Origin: Prorocentrum cordatum
Lineage: Eukaryota; Sar; Dinophyceae; Prorocentrales; Prorocentraceae
DNA length: 64,000 nt
NCBI GenBank assembly: GCA_963575745.1
Contig: CAUYUJ010018901.1
Coordinates: 128,688 to 192,687 of the forward strand
Direction of reading: 5' to 3'
The notes under the pieces were generated by a model that saw only the letters and a program-made list of their open reading frames with translations, was not told the origin of the DNA and made no database searches. Positions 15,090 to 41,947 of the stretch are shown here, piece by piece. The position numbers and the translations under genes were made by a program. The number at the start of each line of letters is the position of its first letter. Positions within the stretch are counted from its first letter, which is position 1.

Positions 15090-15700
15090 ATGGCCCAGAG
15101 CAGCAGCTGCAGGTTCCCAAAGCCGCGAAGGTCGATCAGCAGGATTGACCCCGGACGGGATCCAGCGGCACTGTACCCGCAGCCCAGTGGCGAGCTGCAG
15201 CGCGGCCATCTGACGAAGCTGGCCGAGGAGGGCTGGATCGCGACAGCGGCCTCTCTGCATGGCCAGCGCGAGTGACATATTGTCCACCAGCATGAGCACC
15301 TTGCTGTGCCGCCAGCGCCCGCAGCGAACCACGTGCTTGAGGCCGAGCTTGGCGCCTCTCGCCTCCTTGACGTGAATGGCCCCCTCGTGGCAGCCGCAGG
15401 GACGCTTGGCGACCACGGCCCACTTCGAGTCTCTGACCGAGGTGGGCGCAACGTCGGGAAAGTTCCCGATGCAAGCCAGGCGCCCTCGCTGACGCCCGCC
15501 ATGAAATTGCCGCCCCTGTCGATCGGAGGGTCGGCGTGGTCGTATCCCGCCAAGGCGATCTCACGGTGCTTGCGCAGCGGGTCCTTCTTGAACCTCCAGC
15601 GCTCGTCGTAGCTGCCAGTGATTCGTATATCTCGAGAGTCCCACTCAGCAGCACAGACGCCCAGCCCAGTATCGCAAGCATCCGTCGTCGGCGTGGACCA
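15090..15700 (-). pseudogene. RNase H-like domain of element 1
   Basis: The N-terminal half (TDACDTGLGVCAAEW, then GYDHADPPID) is in one frame. The C-terminal half (HVKEARGAKLGLKHVVR, LMLVDNMSLALA, RWIPSGVNPADRPSR) is in another, with the switch near 15400. The D, E, D and N-x-A-D positions of retroelement RNase H can be followed. It lies between RT and recombinase, as expected for YR elements. Confidence 0.6.
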
Positions 15701-17276: not shown

Positions 17277-17300
17277 GAAAATCGAAATACCGCGGGGCGG

Positions 17301-18394: not shown

Positions 18395-18496
18395 CAGCAG
18401 CGTCGTCGTCGATGCCCAGCCCAGCCCTATGAAAGTCGGAGTTACGGGGGGGGGTCGGGCCCCCCTGCCGAAATGGCTAGGTCGCCGGCAATGGTT

Positions 18497-18511
18497 TTGA
18501 GCCAAAACGGC
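18497..18511 (-). other. Spliced-leader relic at the 5' end of element 1
   Basis: The plus strand reads TTGAGCCAAAACGGC; its reverse complement matches the SL 3' part except for one A to G change. The same changed base occurs in the relic at 5159-5177. It lies about 100 bp before the candidate ATG at 18394 in the correct orientation. Confidence 0.65.
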
Positions 18512-18674
18512 AATATCTACTTTTCTTGCTCGCCGCGGGCTCGTATTTGCCCAAGTTTCACACGCGCAGGTTTGGAAAAGAGCTAACTTGACGGTTTTCG
18601 CCATCAACAGAAAGCAATAACAGCGCGCGGGCCCCAAACGAGCAATTATCAAGGCGACTCGTGCGAAGCCGCGA

Positions 18675-19090
18675 TGTTTTGTGGGGGGGCGAAACCATGG
18701 AAGGCGAGGCGTGGGTGGAAGGGAGGCCCACGGGAGGCCATTGCATAGCGCGCTGGCCTACGAGGGGCCGAACCACTACAACAGTCTACGGCGCCTCCGG
18801 CCAATGGGGCGAGAGGCCGTGGGACGCCATGGGAGGCCAATGGGCGCCATGGGGAACCACTGGAAGCCGCAGGAGGTCCAGCAACGACGGCCGACCCCAG
18901 CACTCAAGGCCACTGGGGCGGGAACCCGGAGGATGCCATTGAAGGCCACGGGGCAACGCAGAGGACCACAGGAGTCCGCCAAGCGAAAACTGACCCCGGC
19001 ACCCAATGCCATTGGACGAGAGACCCTAGAAATGCATAAGAGGCCATAGGATGCCACATGGGGCCGTTGAAGGCCACGCAGCAAGCGCCG
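18675..19090. repeat. Degenerate minisatellite built on GGCCATTGGG/CCATGGGAGGCC
   Basis: Imperfect units around AGGCCAATGGG and CCATGGG recur through the interval. No coding content is supported. Confidence 0.55.
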
Positions 19091-22317: not shown

Positions 22318-23201
22318 GCCCTCCCCACACCCTCATCCCAGGTAGCCTCCATCCGCACTGCATGCCCAACCTCCGTGAAGCTCTCGTCCATGACACCCTG
22401 GTACTCGGCCATGTGCCACATGTTGTCGATGAGCTTCATCTTGTAAGACTTGTCCATGCACCGTCGTCGCCACTCCTGCTTGGCGCTCTCGGCGGTGTAG
22501 CCTTCAATCATGAGGTCGCGCTTCACGATGTGCCATGGCTTCCAATGCAAAAGCTTCCCCGGACGCTCGCCCTTCTTTTTCTCGTCGGCCTCCGTGGCCT
22601 TGAGTCTCTTATTCTGCGCCCTCTTCTGGGCCAGAGAAAGTTTCGAGGTGATAGCCTTTTTGCCTTTGAACCAGTCCTTCCTCTCATTCTCCTCCATCCC
22701 GTTGAACCACACCTGCAGCGAACGGTTGGTCTTCCACCTACGGGTCAAGTCTTTGTAGTGCCCATTACAATCATTGCAGTCGCACGGGAGGCCCATGGCG
22801 AACTTCTTCTTGTCCTGAGTGGTCTTGGCGATGGTCTCATCGGTCAGAGGGTCGTCGCACTTTGGGCACTCAAGCTGCATGGCGCCAGCATCGCGTGCCT
22901 CGGCGTCCTCGGGCAGGCTTCGCTTCGCGGCCTGCGGCTGAACCTGCAAGCACGGCGCGGGAGCCGTGCCCGGAGTGGGTGGCGCCCCTGCCGCGCCCTC
23001 AGGCGTGGCGGCCCCGCCAGAGCCGACAACAAACGCCTCTGCCAAGGCCCCAGGGGCCACGGCCCCCAAGGTGGCAGGGACCTCCATTCCGCTGGGATCG
23101 CCAGCGGCTGGCATTATCGTAGCACCTGGGGGGCTCGTTGCTGCGGGCGCAGCGCTGATCCAAAGACCGCCGAAATAGATTTGACCGCCAATAGCTACCA
23201 T
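22318..23201 (-). CDS. First exon of the multi-exon gene: Cys-rich, zinc-binding-like N-terminal region
   Basis: The ATG at 23201 begins MVAIGGQIYFGGLW, followed by an Ala/Pro-rich region. A Cys cluster comes next, with LECPKCDDPL and then MGLPCDCNDCNGHYKDLTRR, suggesting one zinc-binding unit. The rest is basic and helical (KKAITSKLSLAQKRAQNKRL; WHIVKRDLMIEGYTAESAK). A GTGTGG donor near 22317 (after TGGGATGAGG) would end the exon; the following 290 bp with (TA)n would be intron 1, ending at GCGTTAG (22032). I recall related Cys-rich proteins as a multigene family of dinoflagellates with unknown function. The start is uncertain, since later ATGs exist. Confidence 0.45.
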
Positions 23202-23379
23202 CTGCACTGCCGCCACCAAGCTCAGGTGTGATGAGCCTCCGCTCTCTACTCGAATGCCTGCCCATAACAAGACAAATAAGGAAAGCGAAGAGGAGATTGG
23301 AGGAGGGACGAGAAGACGGAGGAGGAGGGGAAGGGAGTTGATGAAGGCTTGTCCTTCGGACGAGAGGGCCACCCAAACA

Positions 23380-24290
23380 GCCCCTGAGAGACTTCCAAAA
23401 TGGCCCCGAGGGCGCCCTCTGAGGCCCCTCCGAGGGCCCTAGCCAGAGTCCAAGAGGGCCCCGAGAGAGACTTCCAAAATGGCCCCGAGGGCGCCCTCTG
23501 AGGCCCCTCCGAGGGCCCTAGCCAGAGTCCAAGAGGGCCCCGAGAAGGCTCCAAGAGGCTCCAAGAAGGCCCCAAGAGGGCCCCAAGAGGGCTCCAAAAA
23601 GAGGCACACTCGTGCATTTACTTTGTGCCTCCTTGGGGGGCCCTCTTGAGGCCGTCTCGGGGCTCTCCTCTTGGGCCCCTGCGGGGGCCTTGGGAAGTGT
23701 CCAAGAGGGCTCCGAGAAAGCTCCAAGAGGCTCCAAGAGCGCCCCAAGAGGGCCCCAAGAGGGCCCCAAGATCGGTCACGCGAGAAAGGCTTCGCGTGAC
23801 CGCTCTTGGGGGCCTCTTGGAGCCGTCTCGGAGCTCTGTTGGGTCCCCCCAGGGGCCCTGGGAAGGGTCCCAGAAGCTCCAAGAGGCTTCAAGAGGGTCC
23901 CAACAGGGCCTCAAGCGGGCGCCAAGTGGGGGCCCACGAGGGCCCCCAACAGAATCATACAAAGGGACTCGGTTATGATTCTGTTGGGGGTTGTTCAAGC
24001 GGCAATCCGAGGGCCCTCTTGGGCCCCTTCTTGGGGCCCTGTGAGGCCCCTCCGAAAACCCTGCCAAGAGTCCAAGAGGGCCCCGAGAAGGCTCCGAGAG
24101 GCTCCAAGAAGGCCCCAAGAGGGCCCCAAGAGGGCCCCAAAAAGAGGCACACTCGTGCATCTACTTTGTGCCTCTTTGGGGGGCCCTCTTGGGGCCGTCT
24201 CGGGGCTCTCTTGGGCCCCTGCGGGGGCCTTGGGAAGGGTCCAAGAGGGCTCCGAGAAAGCTCCAAGAGGCTCCAAGAGGCCCCAGGGCA
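23380..24290. repeat. GGCCC/AAGAG fold-back satellite, locus 2, with four palindromic cores
   Basis: CCAAGAGGGCCCC units run in one direction, meet a short unique palindrome, then run in the reverse direction (GGGGCCCTCTTGG). Cores lie near 23612 (GAGGCACACTCG with TTTGTGCCTC), 23785 (GGTCACGCGA with TCGCGTGACC), 23965 (CAACAGAATCATA with TATGATTCTGTTG) and 24152 (like the first). A segment of about 79 bp is duplicated head to tail at 23391 and 23470. The first and fourth cores with flanks are direct repeats about 540 bp apart. Long open frames in this region are repeat artefacts. Confidence 0.8.
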
Positions 24291-24354
24291 CAATGGCTGG
24301 GCTGGCAATCCTTCTCAGCGAGCCCTGGAGCCCCCGGTCGGGGCTTCAAGCCCG

Positions 24355-24680
24355 CCCGATCCTCCTCCCCCCCCTCCTCCATCTGCTCCCCCTCCTCATC
24401 CTCCTCCGACACCTCTTGCATACCCTGGGAAGCCACACGTGCAATTAACCAAATGGGTTCCCCCCGCCTTGGAAGGGCACGCCGCTCCAGCCGGCGTTAA
24501 AACTGTTAAAGCAGTCCCCGGCGTTAAAATTGCTAAAGCAGTTTTGGCCCCCTCATCCTTCTCCTCCTCCTCCTCCTCCTCCTCCTCCTCCTCCTCCTTC
24601 CCCTCTTCCTCCACCTCCTCCTCACCCTCCTCTTCTTCCTCCTCCTCCTCCTCCTCCTCCCCCTCCCCACCTCCGTCCTA
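24355..24680. repeat. (CCT)n polypyrimidine tracts
   Basis: Two runs of CCTCCT/TCCTCC, about 24355-24420 and 24556-24675, are separated by a short GC-rich spacer with a duplicated GTTAAAA(C/T)TG(T/C)TAAAGCAGT motif. Confidence 0.8.
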
Positions 24681-24829
24681 CCATGAGGAGGTTAGCTTCT
24701 CTCGTGGGCGTTTCCCACGCGGATCCAAAAACGTCTATACCCGTGATAGACAGTTGATGAAGCATGAGAAGGCTCGACAAGGCGTCCACCCATCGCCGGC
24801 GGACCTCGCTGCTGGCCAGGCCCCCCCGG

Positions 24830-25262
24830 ACGAAAACGAATGAGGGCGAAGCGAAAGCGGACGAAACGAAAGCGGGCGACACGAGAGCGGGCGAAACGAC
24901 GGAGGACGAAACGAAACGAAAGCAGACGAAATGGAAAAGCGGACGAAACGAAAGAGGGCGAAACGAAAGAGAACGGCACAACAGCGGACGAAACGAAAGA
25001 GGACGAAACGAAAGAGGACGAAACGAAAGAGGACGAAACGAAAGAAGACGAACTAGACGAATACGAGAGGGAAGCGGGCAAAACGAAAAGGACGAAACGA
25101 CAGAGGACGAAACGAACGAAACGAAACAAGGCAACGAAACGAAAGCGGACGGAACGACAGCGGGCGAAAATAATGACAACGAAAGAAGACGAAACGAAAC
25201 GGGACGAACGGAAAACTACGAAACGAAAGAGAACAAAACGATTGTTGACGAAACGGAATAGG
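24830..25262. repeat. GACGAAACGAAAGAG purine-rich minisatellite
   Basis: Units of 10 to 15 bp built on GAGGACGAAACGAAA repeat throughout. Plus-strand frames give Lys/Glu/Asp/Thr-rich peptides that I regard as repeat translation. Similar purine-rich DNA lies on the far side of element 2 (from 40982). Confidence 0.8.
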
Positions 25263-25484
25263 TCGTCGCTGGCGGGCCTCGCCGCTGGCCAAGCCTCGGT
25301 GGCGGGCGACGCCACGGGCTGACCAACGCGACAGCGCCCGCGCGCCGGCCAGTCCACAGTTCCACCCGATAGCGGGGAAGACTCAGAGGAGGTAAAAAGT
25401 GGAAGACGAGGAGGACGAGGAAAGACGGAGAGAAGGTGCGATAGGACGAGGAAGACACCGAGGACGACGAGGCAGCACGAGGAG

Positions 25485-25697
25485 AAGTTAAGTGGGATAC
25501 GCGTACACTCAACGGAGGGAGAGGAGGAGAGGAGGGGACGAGAGAGGGACCAGGACAGGGCGAGGGTATTTACATGGCAGCGTGGCGACGCGCATCTCCA
25601 CCTGGGCGTGGGCCCTGACGGCTCACGCCCGACGCGAGCGCGTGGGCCCTGACGGACCGCGTGCTCGCGCTCTGGCACGCCTGCGGCCGCATGGCCA
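25485..25697. repeat. Element 2 repeat B2 (213 bp)
   Basis: Begins AAGTTAAGTGGGATACG and matches 25836-26048 at an offset of 351 bp with about three mismatches. Its left edge is the outer 3' end of the element. Confidence 0.9.
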
Positions 25698-25731
25698 ACG
25701 CAGGCGTCTGGGAGCAAAGCGGGGTGGGTGG

Positions 25732-25837
25732 GCACCCGCGCGTCGGCCTGAGCCGAACGCTACGGACCCAAAATGGCGACCTGAGCCCACACCCCCTCCC
25801 ACTTAACCTGCAGTCTACAACCAATCAGACTATACAA
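25732..25837. repeat. Element 2 repeat A2 (106 bp) with SL-like words
   Basis: Matches 40875-40980 at 103 of 106 positions. The interval 25748-25780 carries the tandem spliced-leader-like words also seen in A1 (here GTCGCCATTTTGG on the minus strand). Confidence 0.9.
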
Positions 25838-26048
25838 GTTAAGTGGGATACGCGTGCACTCAACGGAGGGAGAGGAGGAGAGGAGGGGACGAGAGAGGGA
25901 CCAGGACAGGGCGAGGGTATTTTCATGGCAGCGTGGCGACGCGCATCTCCACCTGGGCGTGGGCCCTGACGGCTCACGCCCGACGCGAGCGCGTGGGCCC
26001 TGACGGACCGCGCGCTCGCGCTCTGGCACGCCTGCGGCCGCATGGCCA
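25836..26048. repeat. Element 2 repeat B1 (213 bp)
   Basis: Joins A2 with a two-base overlap (AA). On the right it borders the unique GC-rich segment 26049-26523, in which no gene is recognised. Confidence 0.9.
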
Positions 26049-26523
26049 TGAGAAGAGAGAACGCAGCCGCGCGCGCGGGGACGCCCAGCCCGAAGTGCGA
26101 GGGCGGACCCTGAGGCCGCAAGGACCTCGCGCGCGCGGCCACTTGCCTGCAACCTTGAGGCCTTCCGCGCCCCGCGCACCCAGAGCGCGGGCGCGGCGCG
26201 TGCGCGAAGCGCGCAAAAGAACAAGAAAAGAGCGGCGCCTGATGCGCAGGGCGCAGAGCGCAAGCGTGGCCCCGCCCGCACGGCGCGCAGGACGCGCAGC
26301 GCGGTCGGGTCCAGGAAGCGCGCGACGTGCGCGCCAAGTTCAAAAACCTCTCACTCACGGGCCTGGCCCGAGTAGCGGTCCGCCTCGATGGGCCGCCGTC
26401 TGCAGCCCGCAGCCCGCGATGCCGCGGGCGCTGGCGTCGGGATGTGGGGTGCTCCACGCCTAGATGGATGGCGTGTTCCCCTGACGGTCGCGGCTCTCGT
26501 CGCCGCTGCGGTCTCCGCCGCGC

Positions 26524-28668
26524 TCACTGTGATCCCGGGGGGCTGCCACCATCGCCGCCCCTCGACGCGCGACCGCCCGCGCTGGGCCTGTCACGCTCAC
26601 TCCGGCCGCGGCTGCCCTGGTCGCCCTTGGAGTGGCCGCCCTTGCCGCTCTTGTCGCCCTTGCCGCCGTTCTTGGCGCCCTTGGCGGCCTTGCCGGAGTG
26701 CTTGCCCTTGATCTTGCCTCCCTTGCCGCCCTTGTCGCCTGCGCCCTTGCCACGCCAGGCTGGGGTCCCACCCCCGCCAGCGGCAGCCTCCGCAGCGGCC
26801 GCCGCAGCACGCCTCCGCTTTTTCTCCTGCTCGTACCAGCCGCCGCGGGGAGCGCGAAGCTGCCCAGCGTGCTTCCCGGTCTTGCGCCGCCCGCGGCCGG
26901 GGGGGGGGTCGCCGCGCCGCGCCCACGCTGGGTCCCGCGCCAGGCTGCGGCTGGGCGACCTCTCGCGCTTGGGCCGGTTGCGGCTGGGCGACCTCTCGCG
27001 CTTGGGCCAGCTGAGGTCGCCTGGCGGGCGGTCCCCCTCAGCCCCCGCGCCCGCGGCACCCGTGCTGGGGCGCTCTCCGTGGCCGGCACTGGGGCCCGGC
27101 GCCTCCCGCGCGGTGTGGCCGCTCTGCCGGGCCTTCTCCACCACCGTCTTGGGTTTGCCGAAGGCGACGCGGCAAGCCTCGCAGTAGCTCACGTCGCACC
27201 CCTTGCAGTGCCACCGCAGGGCTCCGCTGTTAGCTCCGCCCGCGGGGCACATTTCGCAACCCCAACCGTCTCCCGGGTCAAAGGAGCTCCAGCGCATCTT
27301 GAGAGCGCACGTCGGGCAGGCAGGCGGCTGGATGGTCGGGCCATCCTCCCCGTCGCTGCCTGGGTCAGGGCCGCGAGGCCGGCTCGCCCACTCCGTGACC
27401 ACCGTGCACGGGTCCGTCTTGTAGAACCGATAGTTCGACCTCATGCACTCCCGCGCGCGCTTTGCATCAGCGCGGCGCTGGAACTCCACGAGCACACACG
27501 GCTCCCGCTTGTGGCGGTGGTCGTACAGGAAGGCGATGTGCTTGACGACCCCAAAGGGCACGACCACCTGCCTGACCACCTCGGCGTCGACGTGGTGCGG
27601 CACCCGCTCGATGCGGATGATGGACTCGCCCTCGTCGTGCTGGTCACTGGGCTGCTGCTGGGCGCTCTGGCGCTGCTCCTCCTTGCGCCTGCGGCGGCTC
27701 CTCGAGCGCGGCTGGCGCTGGGGCGGACCGTCCCCCGCGCCTGGCGTCGCCGTCTCCTCCACCTCAGTCTTCACCTCGAAGGACCGCGGCGGCGCCCCCC
27801 CGCTCTTGGGCTTCAGGACGGCCTCGCGCTTCACGACGTCGGCCCTCGGAGGTGCGCCCCCCGTCTTGGGCTTCAGGACGGCCTCCTCCTCCCGTCCCCT
27901 GCGCCCGCGATCGCGAGGCTCATCGCGCTCGCGATCGCGGCGCCTCGCGCGCGAGGGCGAGCGCACGGGCGCAGGGCGCCTCTCACGCTTGCGGACCTCC
28001 TCGGCGAGGCGCTCCTGCCCCGGGGAGCGCGGGGGCCGTGGGCGCTCCGCTGGAGCGCCTTTGCTCTGGCGCCGCGCTGCAGCCTGGATGGCCGCTCGCG
28101 CCAGCGCCGCGGTCACGGCGTCCTCGCCCGGGTCGAGCACCGGGGCTGGGGTCGACCCCCCCTCGCCCCTGCTCGAGGCGTCCTCCACGTCGGTGAGCTC
28201 CACGACCGCCTCCGCGTCCACCGTGCGCATCATGTCGAGCAGCCCCCTGTTGTTCTTGCAGAGCTCGCGGAGCCCCGGCATGGGCTGCCCCTGGAACTGG
28301 GCCAAGGCGAGCGCCAGCTTGGCCGCCCGGCGCTGGACCTTGATATTCGGCCCCGCGCCCACTCCCCACGCGCCCCGCTTGCCGTCGACGAGCACCAGCT
28401 GGCCGTGGCCCTCGCTCGCCCCCGCGGCCAGGCAAGCCGCCGCGATGCACGGGGCTGCTTCGTGGTCGTGGTTGACCACCTCGACGAGGTCCTCGCTGTC
28501 CAGCTCGTCCACCACCGTATACAGGATGTTGTGGGCGGCACTCCGGAGCTCGTCCGACAGCGCGGCCCACGAGACGACGACGCCGAGGGGGTTCACCGCC
28601 ATGATGCTGTAGTCATGGCAGCGCGCCTTGCTCTGGTCCGGGGCCACCAGGCCCACCAGGAAGCCCAT
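26524..28668 (-). CDS. Putative RNA-binding protein (RRM plus Cys-rich zinc ribbon, SR-like tails) inside element 2
   Basis: The ATG at 28668 gives about 714 residues. Residues 1-150 include VDGKRGAWGVGAGPNIKVQ and RRAAKLALALA, like the end of a double-stranded-RNA-binding fold. A charged SR-type linker follows (RRRDRERDEPRDRGRRG). Residues about 349-425 form an RRM-like unit (SIIRIERVPHHVDAEVVRQV; CVLVEFQRRADAKRARECM). Residues 451-499 hold four C-x-x-C pairs, enough for two zinc ions. The C end repeats KRERSPSR and finishes in a GKGGK-rich tail. The frame is open further upstream and merges with the recombinase C-terminus, so a fusion or readthrough is possible. Its place between recombinase and B1 makes it cargo or a third gene of the element. 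Composition resembles a splicing or mRNA-binding host protein; that role is inferred. Confidence 0.6.
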   Translation of the reverse strand: MGFLVGLVAPDQSKARCHDYSIMAVNPLGVVVSWAALSDELRSAAHNILYTVVDELDSEDLVEVVNHDHEAAPCIAAACLAAGASEGHGQLVLVDGKRGAWGVGAGPNIKVQRRAAKLALALAQFQGQPMPGLRELCKNNRGLLDMMRTVDAEAVVELTDVEDASSRGEGGSTPAPVLDPGEDAVTAALARAAIQAAARRQSKGAPAERPRPPRSPGQERLAEEVRKRERRPAPVRSPSRARRRDRERDEPRDRGRRGREEEAVLKPKTGGAPPRADVVKREAVLKPKSGGAPPRSFEVKTEVEETATPGAGDGPPQRQPRSRSRRRRKEEQRQSAQQQPSDQHDEGESIIRIERVPHHVDAEVVRQVVVPFGVVKHIAFLYDHRHKREPCVLVEFQRRADAKRARECMRSNYRFYKTDPCTVVTEWASRPRGPDPGSDGEDGPTIQPPACPTCALKMRWSSFDPGDGWGCEMCPAGGANSGALRWHCKGCDVSYCEACRVAFGKPKTVVEKARQSGHTAREAPGPSAGHGERPSTGAAGAGAEGDRPPGDLSWPKRERSPSRNRPKRERSPSRSLARDPAWARRGDPPPGRGRRKTGKHAGQLRAPRGGWYEQEKKRRRAAAAAAEAAAGGGGTPAWRGKGAGDKGGKGGKIKGKHSGKAAKGAKNGGKGDKSGKGGHSKGDQGSRGRSERDRPSAGGRASRGGDGGSPPGSQ

Positions 28669-29199
28669 GATGCACGCTGCCGAAGCGCGGGGCGGAGGCG
28701 CGGCTGGCGCGCGGGGCTGGGGTGCGCGCGCTGCTCGCGCGCCTCGCTCTGGAGTGGGAGACGGCTGCGGATGAGAGGACCAAGAGGAGGTGGGCGTGCC
28801 TGGGGCGATCGGGGGCAGCGGCGAATAGGGACTCGAGGGCGAGAGGTCCACCGGGATGCCCCCGCAACGCGAAGCCCCCGCCCCGAACCAAACACCTGTA
28901 GGACCCGCCTGCTGCTTCCCAACACGCCCGCTAACTCCTCGCCCTGGCTCGTATCTCACCGGCCCCCCCTCTCCTTCCCCCTCCATTTTTGACCCTGCTC
29001 GCGCCGGAGGGCGCGCCCAGGGGGGGCGCCCGGGCGCCCAGGCCGGGCGCTCCGAGGGCCTCAGGTCGCTCCCAAACGGGGGCGGGTCACTCCCGGCCAA
29101 CCGGTCGGGGCGGGCGCTGGCCGTGACGCCGCCATCGCCGCGGGCGTCCGGGGCCAGTAAGGCGTGGCCTTCCGCCATGCCTCGGGCGAATGGAGCCTG

Positions 29200-30148
29200 A
29201 CGCCGATGGTCCTCCCAGAGGTATCCATGGAAGGCGTCCGTGGACCACCTCCCGAACCTCTTGACCGCTTCCAGGTCGCGACAGGCGTGGTACAACGCCG
29301 TCGCGCCCCCGATGCGCAGGGAGTGGGATCCCATCTGGCCTGCGTCCACGCCGCAGGCGGCAGCCGCGAGTTGGAGGAGCCCCTGCACCTCCTCCCGCAT
29401 AATCGGGTGGCCATCGGGCCGGCGGAACAGGGAGCCCCGCCTCGGTTCCTCGTCCAAACCGGTCCGGCAGCTCCCTCTGGAGGTCGGCCAGTGCGTCCAC
29501 GACACACAACTCCACCCCCGAACGGTAATGGTTGCGTACGCAACCTGCGTTAAACTGGTCCGTCTTGGACGACGTGATCGTCAACACTACCTCGTCGCAG
29601 TCGCTGAGCCATGCGCTGGGCGCACCCCCGCGCAGCCCCTGCACGTCCTGCCCACGCACCACCCGTCCCATGCTCTAGGAGCGGTCCTCCTGGACCAAAT
29701 ACTCCGACGCGCGGGGCATGAAGAAGTACCCCGTCATGAGCGCCGCCCATAGGATGGTCGCCTCTCGGCGCGTGGCCGTTCCGTGGGCGAACAAGTACTC
29801 GCGGAGCCAGCGCAACATCCGGGGCGTGGCCGGCAGCTTCCGCTTCGCCTTTCCGTCCCAGCGGCGGAGTCCCTCGATCGTGGTCCAGAGCCGGCGCCGA
29901 TCGGAGGTCACATCCCCAAGCCCTGCCAGGGTATGGGCATACCGAATGGCGAACAGGCGCTGGCGGATGGTCGTGGCCCGCCTCTTCATCACCTTGTACA
30001 GGTACACGACATACCGGATGAGGTCATCCTCATCCGTAAGGCGGGCGTCCCGAGTCTCCCCCTGGAGGTACGGGCTCCGGCCTCGGAGCCTCCGCCAGAG
30101 TACCCAGTTACGCCACCCGGCGCTGTAGTTGGCCCGCGTCCCTTCGGC
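29200..30148 (-). pseudogene. Tyrosine recombinase of element 2 (one stop, one frameshift)
   Basis: The N-terminal SAM-like part (AEGTRANYSAGWRNWVLWRR; YVVYLYKVMKRRATTIRQR) starts near 30148. The first catalytic Arg lies in FFMPRASEYL. A TAG follows at 29675-29677, after which the same frame continues (GRVVRGQDVQGLRGG, then LTITSSKTDQFNAGC). A frame change near 29470 leads to LFRRPDGHPIMREEVQGLL, then SHSLRIGGATALYHACRD (H-x-x-R box, His near 29325) and STDAFHGYLWED (Tyr nucleophile near 29223). All R, H-x-x-R and Y positions are kept, so only two lesions separate this from an intact enzyme. Confidence 0.75.
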
Positions 30149-31606
30149 AAGCTTGGCCAGCATCGCCTCGGTGGCGGTCGCATCCAGCTCGCGAGGGTCG
30201 GTGAGTTCACCCTGAACCCCTTTCGGGGCGCCCCCGCCGGCGTACCGCCAGGCTGCGGGGTTCACCAGCGCGGGGGCAGGGGCACTGCGGGTACGCCGGC
30301 GGGTCTTGCGCGGGGGGCGCGCCTCGCCTCCCGCGCCGTCCGTGGCGCTCGGCCTGGGCATCCCCGCGCCTTCCTGGGCAGCGAAGGTCACCGCCCCGAC
30401 CCGCTCCCCGCCTGCCCCGTCCTCCCCTGCCGCGGAGGACCGAGCGGTAGCAGGGGGGTCGAGCTGGTCCGCCAACCGAGCAGTGTCGTCCGTCGTCTTC
30501 CCCGCCTCCAGCGCAGCCTTCAACGGCCCGCTTGGGCGGTCGGGGGCCTGAAGCCAAGCCTTTAGCCACAGCTTAACCATCTCGTCGTTAGCGAGTCGGC
30601 CGTAGTCGGGTCCGACGCCAGCGCGCGCCCCGGGTGCCTCGCCTGCGCTTGCTGCCTCCACGGCCTGCCTCAGCAGACGCTCCGCCCACTGGAGCACCGA
30701 GCGGGCCGTGCGGCGCGGGAGTGCACGGGCGGCCTGCCGCATGCGCTCGGCGATCGGCATAACTCCAAGGCCCAGGACATCCCACAGCTCCGCCGCGCCC
30801 CCCTGTGCGCACCAGATTTCTTTCGGGTGCAGGGCTCGCACGGTCCAGCCGCCCTCGGACCCTTCCAGGATCAGGGTGTTCGCATAGCCCTTCAACGGGT
30901 CGGGCTTCGCCCGTGCCGTATGGCAGGGCCCGCGCGGATCATGAATCACCACGCGCTGGGCCCGCCCGCCTCCCGCGGGTTGCCATGTGCCGCGCGGCCA
31001 GGGCATCATGCGATCCCCCGTCGTCGAGATCCGGGGGTCCACGAGCAAGGTGCCGCTGTTGAGGTCCAGGCGAAGCTCATCCAGCGGTGGCCGCCCTGCC
31101 TCTCTCCAGAGCTGGCAGAGGCCGCGTGGCTCCACGCAGGGCTGCCCCAGGGGGGGCATGAGGCTCGGCGCCCGAACCCGTTCTCCGCAACCCCAAACCT
31201 GGACCGCCCGCGCGCGTGCCGTGACGTCGCCGAAGTGTGTGCACAGAAGGCGCGTCTCCGGGGAGAGCGCTACATCGCCGAGGCGCCGCAAGCGCGCACC
31301 CGGCCGCGCTGCGGCGTAGTTGACGGGGGCGTCGAGCAACACGGCCAGCGGCCGGGTGGTGATCAGTAGACGCTCCAGGCCCGCCGCCTCGCGTCCACCG
31401 GGGTCCTCCGATAGTGACGCGCACAGCCAACGGATCCGCGGTGCCTCAGCGGGGTCCTTGGGGTGGTCGCCGTCGTCCGGGTCCCATCGGTCACCGACAT
31501 CCCACGGCGCCAGCAGCGCCGACCCGCCGAGGCTCTCCCATGCCTCCCCGAAGGGGGGCCACGCGGTTCCCACCTCCAGCAGCCGCGTCCCCGACTTGCA
31601 GGGGGG
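30149..31606 (-). CDS. Element 2 frame D, N-terminal part: methyltransferase-like region before the recombinase
   Basis: The frame opens after a G6 run at 31601-31606 (C6 on the coding strand), where it takes over from the RT/RNase H frame. LLEVGTAWPPFGEAWESLGG could be a SAM-binding loop. LLCTHFGDVTARARAVQVWG resembles the Q-x-F-G-x-x-R-x-R stretch of C5 methyltransferases. LHPKEIWCAQGGAAELWD with MRQAARALPRRTARSVL resembles their C-terminal motifs IX-X. Catalytic Pro-Cys is not evident, so this may be a degenerate or split domain. A Pro/Ala-rich linker (residues about 400-500) joins it to the recombinase in the same frame. Confidence 0.45.
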
Positions 31607-34014
31607 CGTAGCGTGGTGGGGCCTCCCGGGCTCCCTTGACTTGGAGTGCAGCCGCGCGCCAGGGCCCATCGTCTCCTGGCATCCGCAGCTCGCGCTGGGC
31701 GGCCTCCTCCACCAGCTCGCCCCACGGTGCTGCCGGCGACAACTCGGTCCATCCGGCCTCCGCCATCCGCTGGCGCACCTCCTCCACCGCGGCTCGAGTC
31801 ACGAAGTCGGCCAGCTCGTTCTGGTAAGTCCGTAAGTAGAGTCCGTCCAGGACCCGGAACTTGTACCGTAGCTCCAGCATGGCCAGGACTCGAAGCAGGT
31901 GGCGCGCCACCGCGTTCCGTGCCCGGCGGCGTCGCAGCCAGCGGCTGACATTGCTGTTGTCAGTGACGTACGGCAATAGAAGCTGGAACCAGTCCGGGCC
32001 CTTCTCGGCCGCCAGGGCTATCAGGCACAGGAGTTCGACCACCGCGATGATCTCCCCCCCCCCCTGCCAGGTGACCCCGGGGGCGGAGCGGAGCGTCTCC
32101 AGGTAGGGAGCCGCCTCCGCCACGATGTACTCGCGCGAGGACCAGTCCAGCGCGCCGATCCGATCTAGGGTGGCATCGCCTCCCAGCCATCGCAGCTTGC
32201 CGAGCGCCCCCGGAAGTGCGAGGGCCTCGCGAAGGCCTAGCAGGCCCTCGAAGGAGGTCTCGAAGTTACCCTCGACAGGCATCTCAAAGCAGACGCGCAG
32301 CCAGTCCAGGGTCTGGTGCCAGTCGTCCCACGCAGCCTCTACCTGCTCGGGGTCGCCCGGCGGGTGGACGTAGGCCTGGCCTGGGTCGCCCGACAGCATC
32401 CGGTGGACCGCTGGGATCTCCAGGCTCAGGGCTGGAGCTGCGCAGGCGCAGAACTGGCCGAGCCCACTTAGCTCCCTCGCGGTTCGCAGCCGTACCATGC
32501 GGCAGCCGAAGCTCAGCTCCGGCTCCGCCAGGAGGAAACGCATCTTCATGGCCTTGGGCTCCGGGAGTCCCACTCGCTCGCACTCGAAGTCCATGCTGAA
32601 CCCCCAGATAATCTGAGTGGTGGAGGGCTCCCCCTCGGCGCCCCTCTTGCTGACGTTCACCGCTTCGGACCCGAATACCTCACGTATGGAAGCATCCAGT
32701 GCGTCGCAGGCCATCCATGGTCGGACCCCGATGTCGGGCTCCACCACCACAGGATCATCCATAAGCCACTCCGAGTGGAGGTGGGTGGTGTCGTGCCAGT
32801 GCGGCTCCCCAGGCCGATAGCTCTCGTGGAGCTCCCTCGCCGCCAGGGCGAGCATCATGTAATTGCCTGGGGCTCCTGTCCACCCAAACACCATGGCTAG
32901 GTAAACGACTCTGACGTCCCCCTCGATGCCAGCGTGGGCCCCCGGTAGTGAAGTGCCGAAGTCCCCGACGTCCGCCGGGGCGATGTCCAGCCACTTGAAG
33001 GCCCGCGAGACGTCCCGCTTGGCGCAGAGAAGGCGCGCTCCGGGATGGCGCGCGCGGTGCCATACCGCCGTCCTCGCCACTTGCCGATGGCGTGGCTGGA
33101 CGGCAGGCGGGTGGTCGCGCTTGTGTGTGGCGGCGTTGGCCGAGAGCATCGCGTGGATCATACGCCCTTCGGACGATAGGGTTCTGTCCGGTAGCTGCTT
33201 TGGGACCCTCCCCAGGGGGGCTTCCACCAGCTCCGTCAAAAATCCCTCTGCCGCCTGGGAAGCCACCAAGACGATCCCCCAGGTCACATCCGCCCATACC
33301 TTCTGGTAGGCCTCGTCGATGTGGGCTCGCACGCCGGGGTACGGCTGGGCTCGCTCGCGCCTCCGTGGCGCGCCCCGCCGCGCGGATGCTCCCCCTTCCG
33401 CCAGCTCCCGGACGTGCTCGAAGTGCTCTCGGCTTAAACACCGCCGCACCTTGTCCCCCAGGACACCACGAAGAGGGTTGCCCAGGCGCTCGTGGCGCGC
33501 GCGCCTAAGCAGCGCGGCCGCCTCCTTCAGGGACCCCGTCCGTTGGAGGAGCCGATCCCCCAGACCCACCAGGGTCCGCATGGCTTCGGGGTCATACTCA
33601 GGGTGCTCCGTGCAGAAGGTCAGGTAGACCGTGGCCAGCTCCGCCGGGCTGCACCCGTCGAGGTCCTCCGCGATATCTCTGGCCGGGTCCTCGCAAGGGG
33701 GTCGAGGCTTGCCCGCACTCACCTCCCCCTGTGTCTCGCCCAACGGGGGCTTAGGAAGCCCCGCCAATGCTCGGTGCATGGCTGGGCTGAGCCTACCGCA
33801 TTTTGAGCCGTCCCCTGAAGCCTGTAGGCGCTCGATTCCAATGAAGTCGACGCCCTGCAGGCGCCCGGGCGCCTCCGCCCGGGCGAAATTGGGGGACGCC
33901 CCCGGGCCATCCCCCCATATAGGCGCCAACTGCCGACGCAGTTGGCTCACCGACCAGCGGTGATAGGCACCCTTCAATACCTTAAGCTTGCCCACGCAAT
34001 GCAAAGCCGGGGGG
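31607..34014 (-). CDS. Reverse transcriptase / RNase H of element 2
   Basis: About 800 residues in one frame. The RT palm shows LLCAKRDVSRAFKWLDI (motif A, Asp near 33011), LAMVFGWTGAPGNYMML (motif B) and HSEWLMDDPVVVEP (motif C, intact M-D-D). An RNase H-like domain follows about 270 residues later: VTDNSNVSRWLRRRRARN, then RTYQNELADFVTRAA. The N-terminal 270 residues are helical and unassigned. The frame is entered through a change at a G6 run (34009-34014) and left through a change at another (31601-31606), so it was probably one polyprotein with its neighbours. Sequence errors or small indels at these runs are the likely cause. Confidence 0.7.
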
Positions 34015-37000
34015 CCCAAACCTGCGCCTCCTTGGTGCGCTTAATGCCCGAGCCAGGCACGCGATCTTTCAGCTCGACGTGGTGGTGGTCACGGGGGCAT
34101 CGTCGCGCCAACAACAGAGCGGGCAGGCACAGCCGGGGGCTGACGAGCCACCAGCTGCCCTTGCGATAGCGGCTCTCTGGCGCATCGGACGGGGCCTTAC
34201 CCCAGGCGCACATGTGGATCGGGACGATCATGGCCCCGGTCGCTCGACGCAGCTCGTGCATTGGGGCCTGGTCCCAGATCTTGGGGTAGCGGCCCGAAGG
34301 GCAGGAGGACTCGATGAGAAACTCCTTGCCGGCGTCGTGTAGGATGCGGCAGGTGTCGCACGTGAACTGGGTGTGGCTGTTACCAACGAGCTCGAACTCC
34401 TTGGAGCCGTCCCCCTCGGGGTGCTCCCACGTGCGGGTTCCCTGCGGGGTCCCGCCAGGCTGGGTCATGAGCCCGAGGTCGGTGCACGAGCCACACGGGG
34501 TACCCCAGCACCAGACGTTGGCCACATCTGGGCCCATGGGGGTCCGTGCGGCCTCCTGTAGGCGCGCGCGAACAGCCGGGTCGAGGGTGTCGTGATCCGG
34601 CCGTGGGCCGGACTCTCGGAGAGGGTCGTCGTAGTATTCGATCGGCTCCAGCACCCGGATGCCCTCGGCTCGAAGCGCGGCCGACCAGTTTCCCGACCCG
34701 GCGTACACCTCCTGGGCGATCAGACCGTACGCGAACGCGGGGTCGTGTCGAATTGGCATCGCGTTCGCTTCCAGGAGGCGTGCCTGGACGTCGGCTGGAT
34801 GTTCCCCGAACGAGGCTGGCGCGCGTCCCACTGCGCGGCCCGCCCGACCTTCCGCTGCCTTGCAGTGGGTGCAGGGCGCGCTCTTGCCTGGGACGGTGGG
34901 TTCGACGTCTGGACCTTCGTCGAGCATCTCGCGCCAGCCGACACTCACGATCTCGCGGGACAGGCGTCCTGCGTGCCCCCAGCGCTGGCCTAGGGCCGCC
35001 GCCTCCGCGTGGGAGCGTGGGCGCAAGACGCGCATGTGGCCACGCCAGATCAGGAGCGGAATAACTTGATCCTCCGCGCCGACACCCGTCCCCATTAGGT
35101 GGTCTACGCATAGGCGCCCACTGCCGTTGACACGGTGCACCTGGAGCGTGACGGCGTCGAGGTCGGTGACGGGGCATGCTGCTAGGCAGCGATAGTCCTT
35201 GTCGTGGTGTGGATGCACCGCGTCATGGACGTAGGAGCGGACATCGGCCTCCATGGCCGTGATCCACGGTGGGGAGTCGCCCAGGGCACGAAGTGCCTCG
35301 TGGGCCTCCTCCCATAGTGCATGGCGATACGTCGCGGCCAACTGCTGCACCGCGTCCGAGCTGGGCTCGCCCGCGCCCTCGCCCGCGCGTAGCAGGAGCA
35401 CCCCAGCAGCCACGTGCAGTAGCAGGCACTGCCGCTCCTCGGTGTCGCCCACCTCCAGGCCCATCGCCTGGCCCATCTCCTCTGTAGGGCTGAGGCGGTC
35501 CCGGTAGTCGAGGAAGTCCCACTGGATGCGAGTGTCCCCGTCCCAGAAGGCATAGGACCCGCGGCCTATCAGCCCGTCGGCGTCCCAGGCAACCGGGCCG
35601 ACCTCGGCCCCGCCCTCGGTGACGTATCCTGCGGCGCAGCTAAGCGCCTCATGCAGGTCGGCTGCCTCACTGCTGAGTCCCCGATGGCCTCGGTCCACGG
35701 CTTCCTCGAGGGCCCGCTCCACGGTGAGTCGCTCCCCGCGCAGGCGCGCCCCCAAGACGCGCCCGCGCACGTGGCTCTGCAAGTACTCGCTGGCCCCCTT
35801 CAGAGGCGCGAAGATGCCCTCGGATTCAAGCTCCTGCATGAGCTTGAGGCGAAGCTCCGGCCCATCACCCGCGGGCTGGGCGTCCCAAGTGGCCGCCGCA
35901 CGCGGGCAGTCGCGGTCCTCGAGCCATCCGAAGTCGGGACCCTTAACCGCTTCCCGGAGGTCGGATTCCATCGCGGTAAGCTGGAGCGCAGCGTAGTCGT
36001 CCGGGACCTGCCCCGGGCCCGGGTCGCCCGCCGCTCGCGAGCCGCTACCACGGCCACGGCCCTTTTCCTTCTGGGAGTCAGGGGCAGCAGGGGGCGACGT
36101 GTCCTCGCCGACCTTCTCGGCCTCGGCTGCCTTGGCTTGCGAGCGCAGCTGCGCAATCATCCCATCCACCTGTTTGGGGTCGATCCGGGGCGTCCAAGGG
36201 AGCCCCCCGCGCCTCGTGAGCTGCATGACTACCGTGTAATCCAATCCGCGCGTTGACTTGATGGGGTCATGGGAGTTAGGGCAGTCGCAAGCCTTCCGCG
36301 AGCAGCCCATGTGCGTGGTGGCCCCCCAGCAGATAGGGACATTGTCCTTATTGCGGGGCGCATGCGCCACGGAGCGCGTACGCTCCTGGCGTGTTAACTC
36401 CTTGCCCGCTGGGTACGCCCTCTTGGGGGCTGTCCCCGCTGGGGCCCCGGTGCCCGCCTTGGGCCCCGCCTTCGGCTGGGGCCCAGCCCCCGCCTTGGGC
36501 CTGTCATCACCCTGCGCCGTGGGCCGGGGCTCGCCCATTTCCTCGCCCCCTCCTGCCTTTGGCGGTCGCTTCGTGAGGTGGGCGTTCAGCTGCCCATTGA
36601 GGAGGCGCGTGAGCGCGGCCTTACGCCGGGGCACGACTACCTGCTGGTAGTAGGCATTCGGGTCCCCGAGGTCGAACGTTCGGGGCAAGTCGTAGCCGTT
36701 CTCCGGCATGAGCAGGATGTACTTGATGTCCTCCCTCCTTGGGTTCTCGGTGTCGAGCTCCCGGCAGAGCCGACGCCTGAGCTCCCGTAGCTCCTCGACC
36801 CAGGTGCTCCGGAGCTCTTCCCACAGATCCTTGACCCAATGGTCTGGGAACTCCGAGGGATCCCTCTCGAAGACCGCCTCCAAGAACCCTAGCGACCACC
36901 GACGCTCCGCCCCGTGTGCGACCCCTACGATCGACTCGAACATCTGGATCTCGCACCAGGCCCTCTTGAACCAGGTCGCCATGTGGGTGGCGGGCCGCTG

Positions 37001-37832
37001 GTGGGGCTCCAGTTTGTCGTCCACAGGGAGCCTGTAGCCGTCGAAGTCCTCGTCGCGCGCGGGGATGCAGTCGTCCACTGCCAGGCCCCTCGTGATCGGC
37101 GAGGGCAGGGGGTCGTGTGGGCCCGTCCCGAAGGCGAGCGCCGCGTAGCCGTGCGCCACGCGGTTGGTAACCAGGCAGGGAAACCCGATCGTCTTGAGCG
37201 TGCTCTTGGAGTGCGCACACATGCGCTTGAGGGAGTCGAACAGATCCTTCCCCGTGATCCCCTCGCAGGCCTCAACCACGAAGGTGTTGCATCCCCTGGC
37301 TATGTAAAGATCCAGTTCCTCGTCTCGACCGATCCCCGCCCGGGTGCCCCGGGCCTTCTTGTCGCCCTCGGTGGCCCGCGCCTGCCGCTCGGCGGCGAGG
37401 ACGTGGCGTTCGGTGAGGCGGTTCTGGCGATCCAGGCGCTCTATGATCTGGGCTTCGGCCTCGGCTGTAATCCCGCCCAGGGCCCCCGCCGCCCCGGCGT
37501 CGTCCGGACCACCGGCTCGCTCCCCACCCAGGCCGCCCCCGTGGGGCGTCTGGCCAGTGAGGTGCCCAAGGACCGAAGGTCCGTCGAGGAGCGGGTCGGT
37601 CCCGCGAGCGGGCCCCCCGCGTCCATCGCGTGCCAGTAGGTCCCGATCGCCCAGCAAGCCACGACGTGGGCCCGTGGGTTGGACGGGGGGCATGGCCCCG
37701 AAGAGCTCGCGACGGGGTGCCTGCCTCGGGCTGGGACCCCGTCCCCGCGCCGAGCGGCTCCGCGAGCCCTCGAGTGAGAGGCTGCCCTGCAGGGGAACCT
37801 TGTCGCTGGCCGCAGCACGCTCTCGCGCGCGC
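34015..37832 (-). CDS. Element 2 frame B: Gag-like, CCCH finger and cytosine-methyltransferase-like domain
   Basis: About 1270 residues. The first 430 form a Gag-like helical region (DRQNRLTERHVLAAERQARA; MATWFKRAWCEIQMFESIVG). A CCCH-type knuckle lies at residues about 506-526 (ICWGATTHMGCSRKACDCPN, then SH), spaced C-x8-C-x6-C-x3-H, suited to RNA binding. Near the C end (34710-34130) are EVYAGSGNWSAALRAEG (motif I-like), VWCWGTPCGSCTDLGLM (Pro-Cys motif IV-like), KEFLIESSCPSGRYPKIWD (motif VI-like) and YRKGSWWLVSPR (motif VIII-like). The layout resembles a C5 methyltransferase lacking some parts. It lies between Gag and RT, whereas element 1 has its methyltransferase-like domain after the recombinase. 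Confidence 0.55.
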
Positions 37833-40802
37833 TTCCAGCTGCGCATCCTCCAAATCCGCCAGGGCGCGCTCCAGATCGGGCCCCCGGGGGCCCGCCGCTG
37901 CCACCTGTGCGACTCTCCGCCGCAGCTGCCGGTCCGCCTGATGAAGCGGAATCCCGAGCAGGTCCGCGGTCATACCTAGTGCGCTGAGGGACGCCGCTTG
38001 GCCCCCTCGTCCCTTGAGATCCTCGGCTCGTAAGGTATCCATAAATATTTCGAAGGGACCGGGCTCCTCAGCACCCTCGCTCACGCCGGCGGCGGCCGCT
38101 GCCAAGCGTGGCGGAGCCGCCACGGGGGCTGGGCGGGGCAAGCCCTCCATCCCGGGCGCAGGTTGCGCCCCCTGCGCGCCGCCCCGCCGGTGGTGGCCGA
38201 GCGTGCGTACCGGGTCGTGCTGCAGCTGCTGGCGTTCCGTGCTCGTCAGGTAGCGCCGCCTCCAGCCGCTCGCGCTTTCCACGCCCACACCGCCCCACTG
38301 CTCCTGGCGTAGCATCGCCAGCAGATCCTGCGGGATGTGGTGGGCGATGACACGCAACCCCACTTCCCGCGCGCCTTGGGGGACCTCGTACAGCAGCCGA
38401 TTGATCCAATCTATCGGGTAGCGCCCGTCCTCCAGCGGAGGGGGATGCCGCGCGACCTCGCTGGCCGGGACCTCCACCCTGACGCCCTCGAGGCTGGTCC
38501 CGATGATAAGTCGGGCGTCCCCGCCAGTCCCCCGTGCGTCGAGCCCCTCGCATTCTCCCAGTAGAATGTACCAAGGACTCGCCGGGGGCGCGCCATACGC
38601 CTCCTCGGCTCCCCGAGGGTCGCCCGGGAGTATCGGGCAGACCTTCAAGAGAATGGGCTCCTGAAGCCACCCGTGATGGGCGATCCGATCGCCCGGGGCT
38701 CCGCGGTCGGCGGACCGCGAGCGTTCGCTGGCCCTTGCTTCCGCGGAGCGCGAACGACGCGGCTGCGGCCCAGAGGCTAGAGCCTGCACCCCCGAGGGCT
38801 CAACATCGACGGATGGGGCCACGGCGGGCGGTGGTGGTGCAGCGGGCGGGGGGTAGACCGGCCCGGGCGCTACGCCAACCCCATCGGCGGCATGCGCGGT
38901 CCAATCGCGCGCCCTGGCGGGGCTTGGAGCCCGCACTCGCATGCGACGGCGCAGACCCCCGAGGATCCCTGGTTGGACCGTCGCTTCGACGCGCACGGTG
39001 CGGCCCTCGTCCCGTCGGAGATGTTCCCCGCACATCGGGCCCCCCCCACAGCTACCCTTCGCCATGCGGAGGCAAGTGGGGGGGCTGCATTTGCGGCCGA
39101 TCACGGTAGACCGATACTTCTGCGCATGGTGGGCGCAGAGGTGCACCTGTGCATTGAGACAATGCCCCGGCCTTGGGACATCCGACACCTCTGCATCCTC
39201 CTGTAGCAGAACAGTCGCCTCCTGCATCCCTCGGTCGCCGCACCCCTCCGGCTGGAGGGGGCGTGCGCAACCTGCGAGCTGCACCCCAACTTGTGCGGCT
39301 TGGCAGGGGCGCTCCTCCGCCTCCACCTCGCTCTCCGAATCGATGTCCAGGCGGCGGCAGCCCGTGGCGTCGGCGATGTAGCGGGGCTCCGGCCGGCCCC
39401 GGCACAGCCATCCAAGTACCGACCAGGGCAAGCAGAGCAGCCACTTGATGACCCCGATTACCTTCCGGAGTCCCACGCCGACTGCCCGGCATGCTGTGGC
39501 CTTACCGTGCTCAGCCAAGTCCACGATCTGTGTGTGGTCGATGGCCGCGTACTGGTCGACATGCATGGGGTGCGCCACTGGGCAGGAGGCGCACTCGACG
39601 GCACGGCATAGATGCACGTTACCTGTCTCCTCGAGGTTCAGCCGCCACTTACGACTGGTGCACCCCAGAACCTGCCCGATCTTGATGTTGAGTCCGTGGC
39701 GGTCCAGTCGATACCGGTCCGCGAAGTTGCAGCTGATGCGGGCCACCTGCCCGTGCTTGCGCAGGAGCACGTGGTTGCATGCCCGATTGGTTCCCCGGCC
39801 GCGGACCCCCTTTGTGTAGAACTCCGTTTCCACCACGCCGCCCAAGCCCAGCCCGCGCCAGCGCACCAGCAGGGGAGTCGGAGGGGGCGGGGGGAGATGG
39901 GCGCCGGGCCCATCGCCTCCGCGTCGCTGGCAGCACTGGGTAATCTGGTACCACGCCCAGCGGAGCCCCCCGGCTGCCCACAGCATAGGCTGGGCTGCGG
40001 TGTTGACGATGAAGGCCAGGGCACCCAACACGAACGTGAAGATGCCCAGGGCGAAGCAAAGGACCGCGGTCTCCCACCAGTAACCGAGCATCTTGACGCC
40101 CAGTCGATCGATGGCGGATCCAACCCAGCCGCCGCTCGTGCGGATCGTGCCAGTGTGGTCGGGGGAGCTCACCCACGCACCGTAGCCCACGAACTCGAAG
40201 ACCCAGGCTGCGAATCCCCAACCGGGACCTGGCCCCGCCTCCGGGGGCGGGGTAGGTGGCGGCGGTGGCGGTGGGGGCGCGCTCCGGCCAGCCCACCAAT
40301 GGGGCAGGTGCGGAACCCAACCGCTCCACCCCCAATATCCGTCCAGCCCGCGCGGCTGGTCAGGCTCGCCATCGCCCGTCCGGTTTCCCGGGGCGGATGG
40401 CTGCCCAGGCGCGCCCGGGGGCTCGTCGTTCCTTCCGTATGCCGGCGTAGCCGGGCTGCCCGTGGGCTCGCCCTTGCCTACGCGCCCGATGCCCGCAGGT
40501 GTGGTCGTTGTAGTCGACCCTGACCGCGGCGGCGCGGGGGCGCCTGGCGCCCGCGGGGGCTTGGCCTGCGGCCCTCGCCCCTTTCCCCCTGCAGGCGCAG
40601 GCTTGGCGGGCGGTCCTCGCCCCTTGCCTTGCCCTCCACCGCCTGTCGGCAGGGCTGACGGCCCGGGCAGGGCTGACGGCGTCGGCGCTGGGACCTCATT
40701 CCCCCCGCGTCCGAATGGCAGCCAGCTCAGTGCCCCTTGGACCGTGAAAGCACCGCCCATAACCAGGATCATCAGGTGCGCTCCCAGGAAGCCCACAGCC
40801 AT
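37824..40802 (-). CDS. Element 2 frame A: Pro-rich, membrane-spanning Gag N-terminal protein
   Basis: ATG at 40802, about 72 bp downstream of A1, opens a frame of about 990 codons before the frame switch at 37824-37832. A hydrophobic N-terminus (MAVGFLGAHLMILVMGGAF) resembles a signal peptide. A Pro/Gly-rich region and a strong membrane segment follow (WETAVLCFALGIFTFVLGAL). A Cys/His cluster lies further on (HCLNAQVHLCAHHAQKY; GGGPMCGEHLR), possibly zinc-binding. The C part contains FEIFMDTLRAEDLKGRGG and QADRQLRRRVAQVAAAG. Predicted membrane segments are odd for Gag but recur in dinoflagellate retroelements I recall, including the 50-kb fragment here. Function unknown. Confidence 0.55.
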
Positions 40803-40874
40803 GGCACCACAGCAGCGCCCCCTAGTCCGCGGACTAGCACGGCTGTGGTTATGGCCGCCCCGCGGCCCCCCGGA

Positions 40875-40980
40875 GCACCCGCGCGTCGGTCTGAGCCGAA
40901 CGCTACGGACCCAAAATGGCTACCTGAGCCCACACCCCCTCCCACTTAACCTGCAGTCTGCAACCAATCAGACTATACAA
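40875..40980. repeat. Element 2 repeat A1 (106 bp), 5' end of the element
   Basis: Matches A2 (25732-25837) at 103 of 106 positions. Reading on the minus strand, it starts TTGTATAGTCTGATTGG and lies immediately upstream of the first frame, so it probably holds promoter or 5' leader sequence. Confidence 0.9.
40891..40923 (-). other. Tandem spliced-leader relics inside A1
   Basis: The minus strand has GTAGCCATTTTGG (40923-40911), 13 of 13 identical to the SL core. Right after it comes TCCGTAGCGTTCGGCTCAG (40909-40891), which keeps both ends of a diverged second SL. The A2 copy at 25748-25780 has the same layout with one more change. Confidence 0.65.
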
Positions 40981-41620: not shown

Positions 41621-41679
41621 ATCTGCGGACCTCGTGGCCCTCATTCGCACGCAGGACACACAAGGGGCGCCCGCCGGAC

Positions 41680-41850
41680 GCGAATCCACAAGAATCCGCA
41701 AGAATCCGCGAGAATCCGCGACGACCTCCTGGCCGAAACGCAAGCGAATCCACAAGAATCCGCAAGAATCCGCGAGAATCCGCGACGACCTCCTGGCGGA
41801 AACGCAAGCGAATCCACAAGAATCCGCAAGAATCCGCGAGCGATTTCTTG
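41680..41850. repeat. 64-bp tandem repeat, 2.7 copies
   Basis: GCGAATCCACAAGAATCCGC begins at 41680, 41744 and 41808. Inside each unit the shorter word AGAATCCGC is itself repeated. Confidence 0.85.
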
Positions 41851-41947
41851 GGAATGACGCCAGGGGCGCCGAAGGGAGTCCGCATGGGCCCCGGCGCCAC
41901 CCGAACCTTGATTTTTTCTCTGAGAGCACGCGCACAGCCTAAGACAA

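Follow-up and report, generated by a model that had tools for sequence, protein, structure and literature searches.

The 64,000-nucleotide stretch of Prorocentrum cordatum DNA analysed here (the window) very probably contains one copy of a high-copy, DIRS-order tyrosine-recombinase retrotransposon family with split direct repeats, a copy that is structurally complete and whose coding frame has decayed. The element runs from position 40980 (5' end) to 25487 (3' end) on the minus strand, on which all of its features given below lie, and it has the characters of the DIRS order, namely a reverse transcriptase (RT), a tyrosine recombinase with R, HxxR and Y, and absence of target-site duplication. 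A first-pass annotation, made from the letters of the window, had already described a split-direct-repeat tyrosine-recombinase retroelement of about 15.5 kb, and the repeats, the genome copies, the RT and the recombinase all bear this out.

The repeats are arranged in the order A1, coding region, B1, A2 and B2, as that annotation had read them. A1 (40875..40980), the 5' terminus, which begins with TTGTATAGTCTG, and its internal copy A2 (25732..25837), which abuts B1, agree in direct orientation at 103 of 106 positions, against 15/106 in the reverse-complement control, while B1 (25836..26048) and the 3'-terminal B2 (25487..25697) agree, likewise in direct orientation, at 210 of 213 positions (control, 53/213); the same two pairs were recovered by an unprompted repeat search of the window. 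B1 and A2 share 2 nt (TT) in the window copy, and 34 nt separate A2 from B2. Comparison with the genome copies, together with an empty site, places the 3' end at CACTTAAC, window position 25487, so that the earlier estimate of 25485 lay 2 nt too far. Complete copies start with TTGTATAGTCTG or variants of it differing in 1-2 bases and finish with CTCACTTAAC (CCCACTTAAC in the window copy), and among the 16 5' ends read the second base preceding GTATAG was T in 13, C in two and G in one. The B1-A2 junction reads CACTTAAC-TTGTATAG in all six complete copies, window included, and a circle joining a copy's own B2 and A1 ends would equal its B1-A2 junction, identically in four of the six and with one base changed in two. 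An 11-nt perfect inverted repeat, TCCCACTTAAC (25848-25838) and GTTAAGTGGGA (25807-25797), lies around this junction (25797..25848); it was reached by 0/2000 mononucleotide shuffles, has 1 of its 11 positions unpaired in each of the five other complete copies, and could possibly be a recombinase site, judging by its sequence. No inverted repeat pair of 40 nt or more was found between 24500 and 42000, and the inverted termini and internal complementary region of DIRS1-like elements were not seen there.

The element is a high-copy family in the host genome. Searches covered the host assembly (4,128,499,153 bases in 21,875 contigs), each list of copies includes the window copy, and all copy counts are lower bounds. 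A query with the B1-A2-B2 block was found at at least 40 places, and 40/40 of those scored reached at least 96% identity (679 first-look candidates); the 5' end was found at at least 40 places, 40/40 scored at 94% or more (653 candidates); and the RT was found over all its 639 residues at at least 69 places, with no less than 97% identity in 69/69 scored (2,491 candidates). When the 40 scored 3' ends were paired with the 40 scored 5' ends, 15 had a same-strand partner 14.5-16.5 kb away, the window being one of the 15, and a further six had one at 14.4-52.9 kb. The first-pass annotation had named repeats unlinked to these frames as evidence that would speak against it; the repeat block continues into the coding region in 30/30 fetched 3' loci (1.5 kb compared in each), one of which keeps only the last ~190 nt of the coding-side match before other DNA, and all ten copies that were extended further hold at least 2.7 kb of element. 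Of these ten, five are complete with A1, four stop before A1 within the fetched span and one is interrupted by other DNA, and the five complete ones show the same A1-body-B1-A2-B2 arrangement as the window, which that annotation had proposed to look for genome-wide. The family has apparently been active recently. Most of the 30 3' loci are also longer than the window copy, by about 100 bases or more, in the segment that separates the stop codon from B1 (element positions 14591-14637, window about 26390-26344).

Insertion was clean, without target-site duplication, at the sites tested. For one copy an empty site was found on another contig, which is 99% identical to the joined flanks over 156 of 180 nt; the site reads GATCT directly followed by CCCTGC, which is the two flanks exactly joined with no duplication, and it differs by 2 nt about 20 nt away from the joint. 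For a second copy, 38 of the 40 listed places run through the flank joint, the other two being its own flanks, and these joint matches span only 15-23 nt of the 5' flank against 89-90 nt of the 3' flank. None of the five further complete copies has an exact 2-12-nt duplication at the joint. The flanks of the window copy itself could share TT, yet an obligatory 2-nt (TT) target duplication is ruled out, as many dinucleotides occur at the start of the 3' flank elsewhere in the family and the empty site has no duplication. Clean joints of this kind point to insertion as by a tyrosine recombinase, unlike that by a DDE integrase; no integrase-core family appeared among the Pfam matches, and the DDE integrase plus target duplication of long terminal repeat (LTR) Gypsy/Copia elements was not found. 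A preference for microsatellite targets is not claimed, as 5/29 3' flanks (one of the 30 was dropped because its end was not found) against 171/3000 random 60-mers drawn from the window beyond the element are small numbers. Two loci on different contigs, L023 and L024, have an identical 32 nt of 3' flank, which suggests a duplicated segment containing the insertion.

Besides, the separate open reading frames (ORFs) of the window are the debris of a single polyprotein frame (26460..40802) that the first-pass annotation missed. The frame begins with the ATG at 40802 and finishes with a stop codon ending at 26460, 4,780 codons in the window copy, where five frame changes and an in-frame stop (29675-29677) interrupt it and where the RT, the recombinase R and the HxxR/Y lie in three different frames. 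Across the 69 scored copies the open frame around the RT has a median of 3,520 aa, compared with 849 in the window copy, and reaches at least 4,774 aa in 15 and exactly 4,775 in nine, in keeping with the 4,780 codons of the window copy. Other copies have open frames covering the RT and the recombinase Arg box, a ~3,684-aa open frame that begins around the start codon and reaches the recombinase domain (one copy), and a 1,674-aa open frame from RNase H through the C-terminal module. The ratio of nonsynonymous to synonymous change (dN/dS), calculated in bins of up to 150 aa against three overlapping reference pieces, each a single copy, was 0.08-0.72 and below 1 in 37/37 bins, whereas in the shifted-frame control 17/74 values fell below 1, the lowest being 0.42. 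In two bins a shifted frame scores lower than the reading frame, and one of the two opens a reference piece whose first residues adjoin a frame break. As related copies were compared with single-copy references, these ratios serve as a guide and not as a test on independent samples. An ORF-by-ORF reading of one decayed copy can thus conceal a single giant polyprotein.

From the N-terminus, the polyprotein begins with a membrane-type region (40008..40802) comprising a hydrophobic N-terminus and the strongly hydrophobic segment VLCFALGIFTFVLGALAFI (40064-40008). Hydropathy and dN/dS (0.37, 0.14 and 0.08 over aa 0-450) support the membrane-type segment that had been proposed for the Gag position, and of 7,979 candidates scored, none proved a homologue (E 0.001) of residues 40-560 of the N-terminal ORF. 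A Cys/His cluster, CX8CX4CXCX3H (36269..36331), recognized by eye and without a family match, is a putative Gag zinc motif. Upstream of the RT lies a C5-DNA-methyltransferase-like domain (33989..34792) with motif I EVYAGSG from 34711, a catalytic-type PC (34504-34478), Glu (34321-34292) and RYRK (34174-34148). Its predicted fold (pLDDT, the model's confidence score, 69.8) agrees with the methyltransferase-type domain suggested earlier and predicts the C5 type, with DNMT3A as the best structural match, tied with M.HhaI and M.HaeIII; all structural matches listed are of C5 type, in a comparison set that leaves unlisted families possible (the question of a Dam-type N6-adenine enzyme), and Pfam searches gave no PF00145 match for the domain. 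The RT (32300..33680, bounds approximate) has motif A KRDVSRAF (33023-32991) and motif C LMDD (32774-32742), and its fold is confirmed by structure prediction. In a sequence search of PDB with the RT alignment, 32 entries matched at E values up to 10, and no RT is named among them. RNase H (31794..32195) was assigned by the motifs GGDAT, VVELL, TDN and NELAD. In the tyrosine recombinase (29026..30193; PF00589, E 4e-4, below the gathering cut-off) we located R at 29731-29696, HxxR at 29331-29299 and Y at 29256-29215, residues that were also seen by eye in the relatives P0005 and P0012. The M-D-D of the RT and the catalytic residues of the recombinase reported by the first-pass annotation are therefore all present, in a window frame that is broken. 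The C-terminal RNA-binding-type module (26460..28668) consists of an N-terminal part (28668-28300), an RRM (27621-27442; RRM_1, above the cut-off), a zinc-type cluster (27318-27172) and a Lys/Gly-rich tail, with dN/dS of 0.23 and 0.19 in the bins holding the RRM and the zinc cluster, but 0.72 where the bin covers the N-terminal part.

These features suggest a cycle in which RNA from A1 to B2 would be translated as one polyprotein and copied by the element's own RT. The internal B1-A2 block would template the B2-to-A1 junction and so give a closed circle, and the recombinase would exchange strands at the B/A junction to insert it. The N-terminal segment is probably a membrane anchor for the polyprotein, the cDNA is the probable substrate of the methyltransferase, and the element RNA is probably bound by the RRM/zinc module at the C-terminus. 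A circle formed via the internal repeats is the model proposed for Ngaro and PAT elements. Its repeat-annealing steps are mentioned in PMC6681497. The matches of four copies (L032, L039, L044 and L045) stop before A1, which is unexpected under circle-based insertion. Near-identical copies are numerous in this family and a good share of these have the frame open throughout, which makes three questions testable: by what means RNA-copied mobile DNA is supported in dinoflagellates, whose mRNAs are trans-spliced; what role cytosine methyltransferases play in retroelements; and whether recombinase elements with split direct repeats pass through a circle in their cycle.

Published elements were compared with this family by the passages that describe them. 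The nearest described system is SymbioDIRS-Dnmt3 of Symbiodinium (PMC5890265), and that the element belongs to this dinoflagellate lineage is, in our estimate, slightly better than an even chance. As described, both have a dinoflagellate host, A-coding-B-A-B repeats, a cytosine methyltransferase sharing the RT polyprotein, a tyrosine recombinase, and a divergent RT that aligns poorly with Pfam (PMC5890265); besides, DNMT3A is the best structural match here and one RT relative (P0019) is named Symbiodinium microadriaticum. However, the DNMT3A match is tied with two others, P0019 is only 32-38% identical, the recombinase of SymbioDIRS lies in a separate ORF whereas here it shares the frame with the RT, and the methyltransferase there was found by PF00145, which has no match here (PMC5890265). 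Of the two, only the present family shows the recombinase in the same frame, the N-terminal membrane-type segment, the C-terminal RRM/zinc module and a polyprotein of ~4,775 aa. KnitGypsy-Dnmt3 (PMC5890265) also has a retroelement polyprotein with a cytosine methyltransferase, but it is an LTR Gypsy element, in contrast to the tyrosine recombinase and split direct repeats found here. The first-pass annotation had proposed a candidate new clade, and this holds by half: dinoflagellate DIRS elements with A-coding-B-A-B repeats and a cytosine methyltransferase were already described in Symbiodinium (PMC5890265), whereas the union of recombinase, membrane-type segment and RRM/zinc module in one polyprotein of ~4,775 aa, and a leader-like stretch in the A repeats, are new with respect to the literature compared. 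No paper joining Prorocentrum with DIRS was found in a literature search whose coverage leaves out most subscription journals, and the words 'retrotransposon' and 'DIRS' are absent from the main text of the P. cordatum genome paper (PMC10666404).

Assignment to a PAT/Toc3-like DIRS element, with split direct repeats plus a methyltransferase, seems unlikely to us. The methyltransferase of PAT elements lies downstream of RT and RNase H. The same position is given for DIRS-like elements (PMC9210276), whereas it is upstream of the RT here, and the DIRS-class methyltransferases reported before 2018 were Dam-like (PMC5890265), whereas a C5 type is predicted here. Both features by which the published key recognizes PAT are present (PMC4157794); the passages compared do not describe PAT's own domain.

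A true Ngaro element that has gained extra domains, the type named by the first-pass annotation, is a shade less likely still. The A1-ORFs-B1A2B2 order, in which the internal repeats follow the recombinase, matches the key (PMC4157794, PMC8547959), the RT/RNase H and the recombinase with HxxR and Tyr are alike as well (PMC8547959), and the element also inserts in the manner of a Ngaro. In the passages of the key that define it, however, Ngaro is without a methyltransferase domain (PMC4157794, PMC9210276), so that the methyltransferase-fold domain predicted here leads us to reject Ngaro membership; moreover, RT, recombinase and the rest occupy one frame of a ~15.5-kb element, whereas the Cafeteria Ngaro has separate ORFs (ORF1-3) in ~6 kb (PMC8547959). 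A tandem or assembly artefact, that is, unrelated repeats around a gene cluster, has practically no probability left: apart from the genome being repeat-rich nothing was found in its favour, and it is refuted by further complete copies, the same 15.5-kb unit standing on several contigs with different flanks, and by the exact empty site.

The A repeats also carry a stretch resembling the dinoflagellate spliced leader, which is given as DCCGTAGCCATTTTGGCTCAAG (PMC12014239, PMC6050394). A1 contains GTAGCCATTTTGGGTC, which matches the leader at 15 of 16 positions in sense orientation, 105-121 nt upstream of the start codon, and includes a 13-nt exact match to the leader core, GTAGCCATTTTGG (40911..40923), the only exact one in the window; A2 has a one-mismatch copy at 25768-25780. 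Nine places in the window match the 13-mer with up to two mismatches, where 1.2 are expected, and 0/3000 shuffles of A1 reached the leader-match score. The stretch is present in A1 and A2 of 5/5 further complete copies, and in A2 it is exact in 27 of 30 loci, has one change in another and was not found by pattern in two. The window alone (A1 exact, A2 with one change) would suggest that a new leader refreshes A1 but not A2; the five further copies do not bear this out, the two stretches being the same in each of them. Leader relics occur in retroposed genes of dinoflagellates (PMC6050394), which makes past trans-splicing of the element RNA plausible. Against such an origin, the A-repeat stretch keeps GTAG and misses the CTCAAG end, unlike the usual relic, CCATTTTGGCTCAAG (PMC12014239). 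We hypothesize that the leader-like stretch helps strand transfer. On a wider proposal, which we regard as doubtful, the host's spliced leader would take part in replication: trans-spliced RNA would lose the 5' part of A1, leader cDNA would anneal to the leader-like stretch of A2 and the split repeats would restore the end; together with a membrane segment, a cDNA-marking methyltransferase and an RNA-binding tail in one ~4,775-aa polyprotein, this would make the family a new clade with reverse transcription adapted to trans-splicing.

No RT relatives were found in IMG/VR. Elsewhere in the window (G+C 60.8%), ten other long ORFs gave one PT repeat and no further Pfam family at E 0.01, and a minus-strand cluster of long open frames at 14030-18757 (up to 1,033 aa) had no Pfam match at that threshold. 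Low-complexity coding-like repeats of the GPSEGP/GPREGSKRLQEGPK type occupy both strands at 22999-24500; GPSEGP-type repeats look typical of dinoflagellate proteins. Just past the 3' end of the element is a long array (24819-25265) of degenerate ~15-nt tandem repeats of the ACGAAACGAAAG type, and a 64-nt tandem repeat (CGAATCCACAAGAATCCG...) with two full copies and a partial third stands at 41675-41866.

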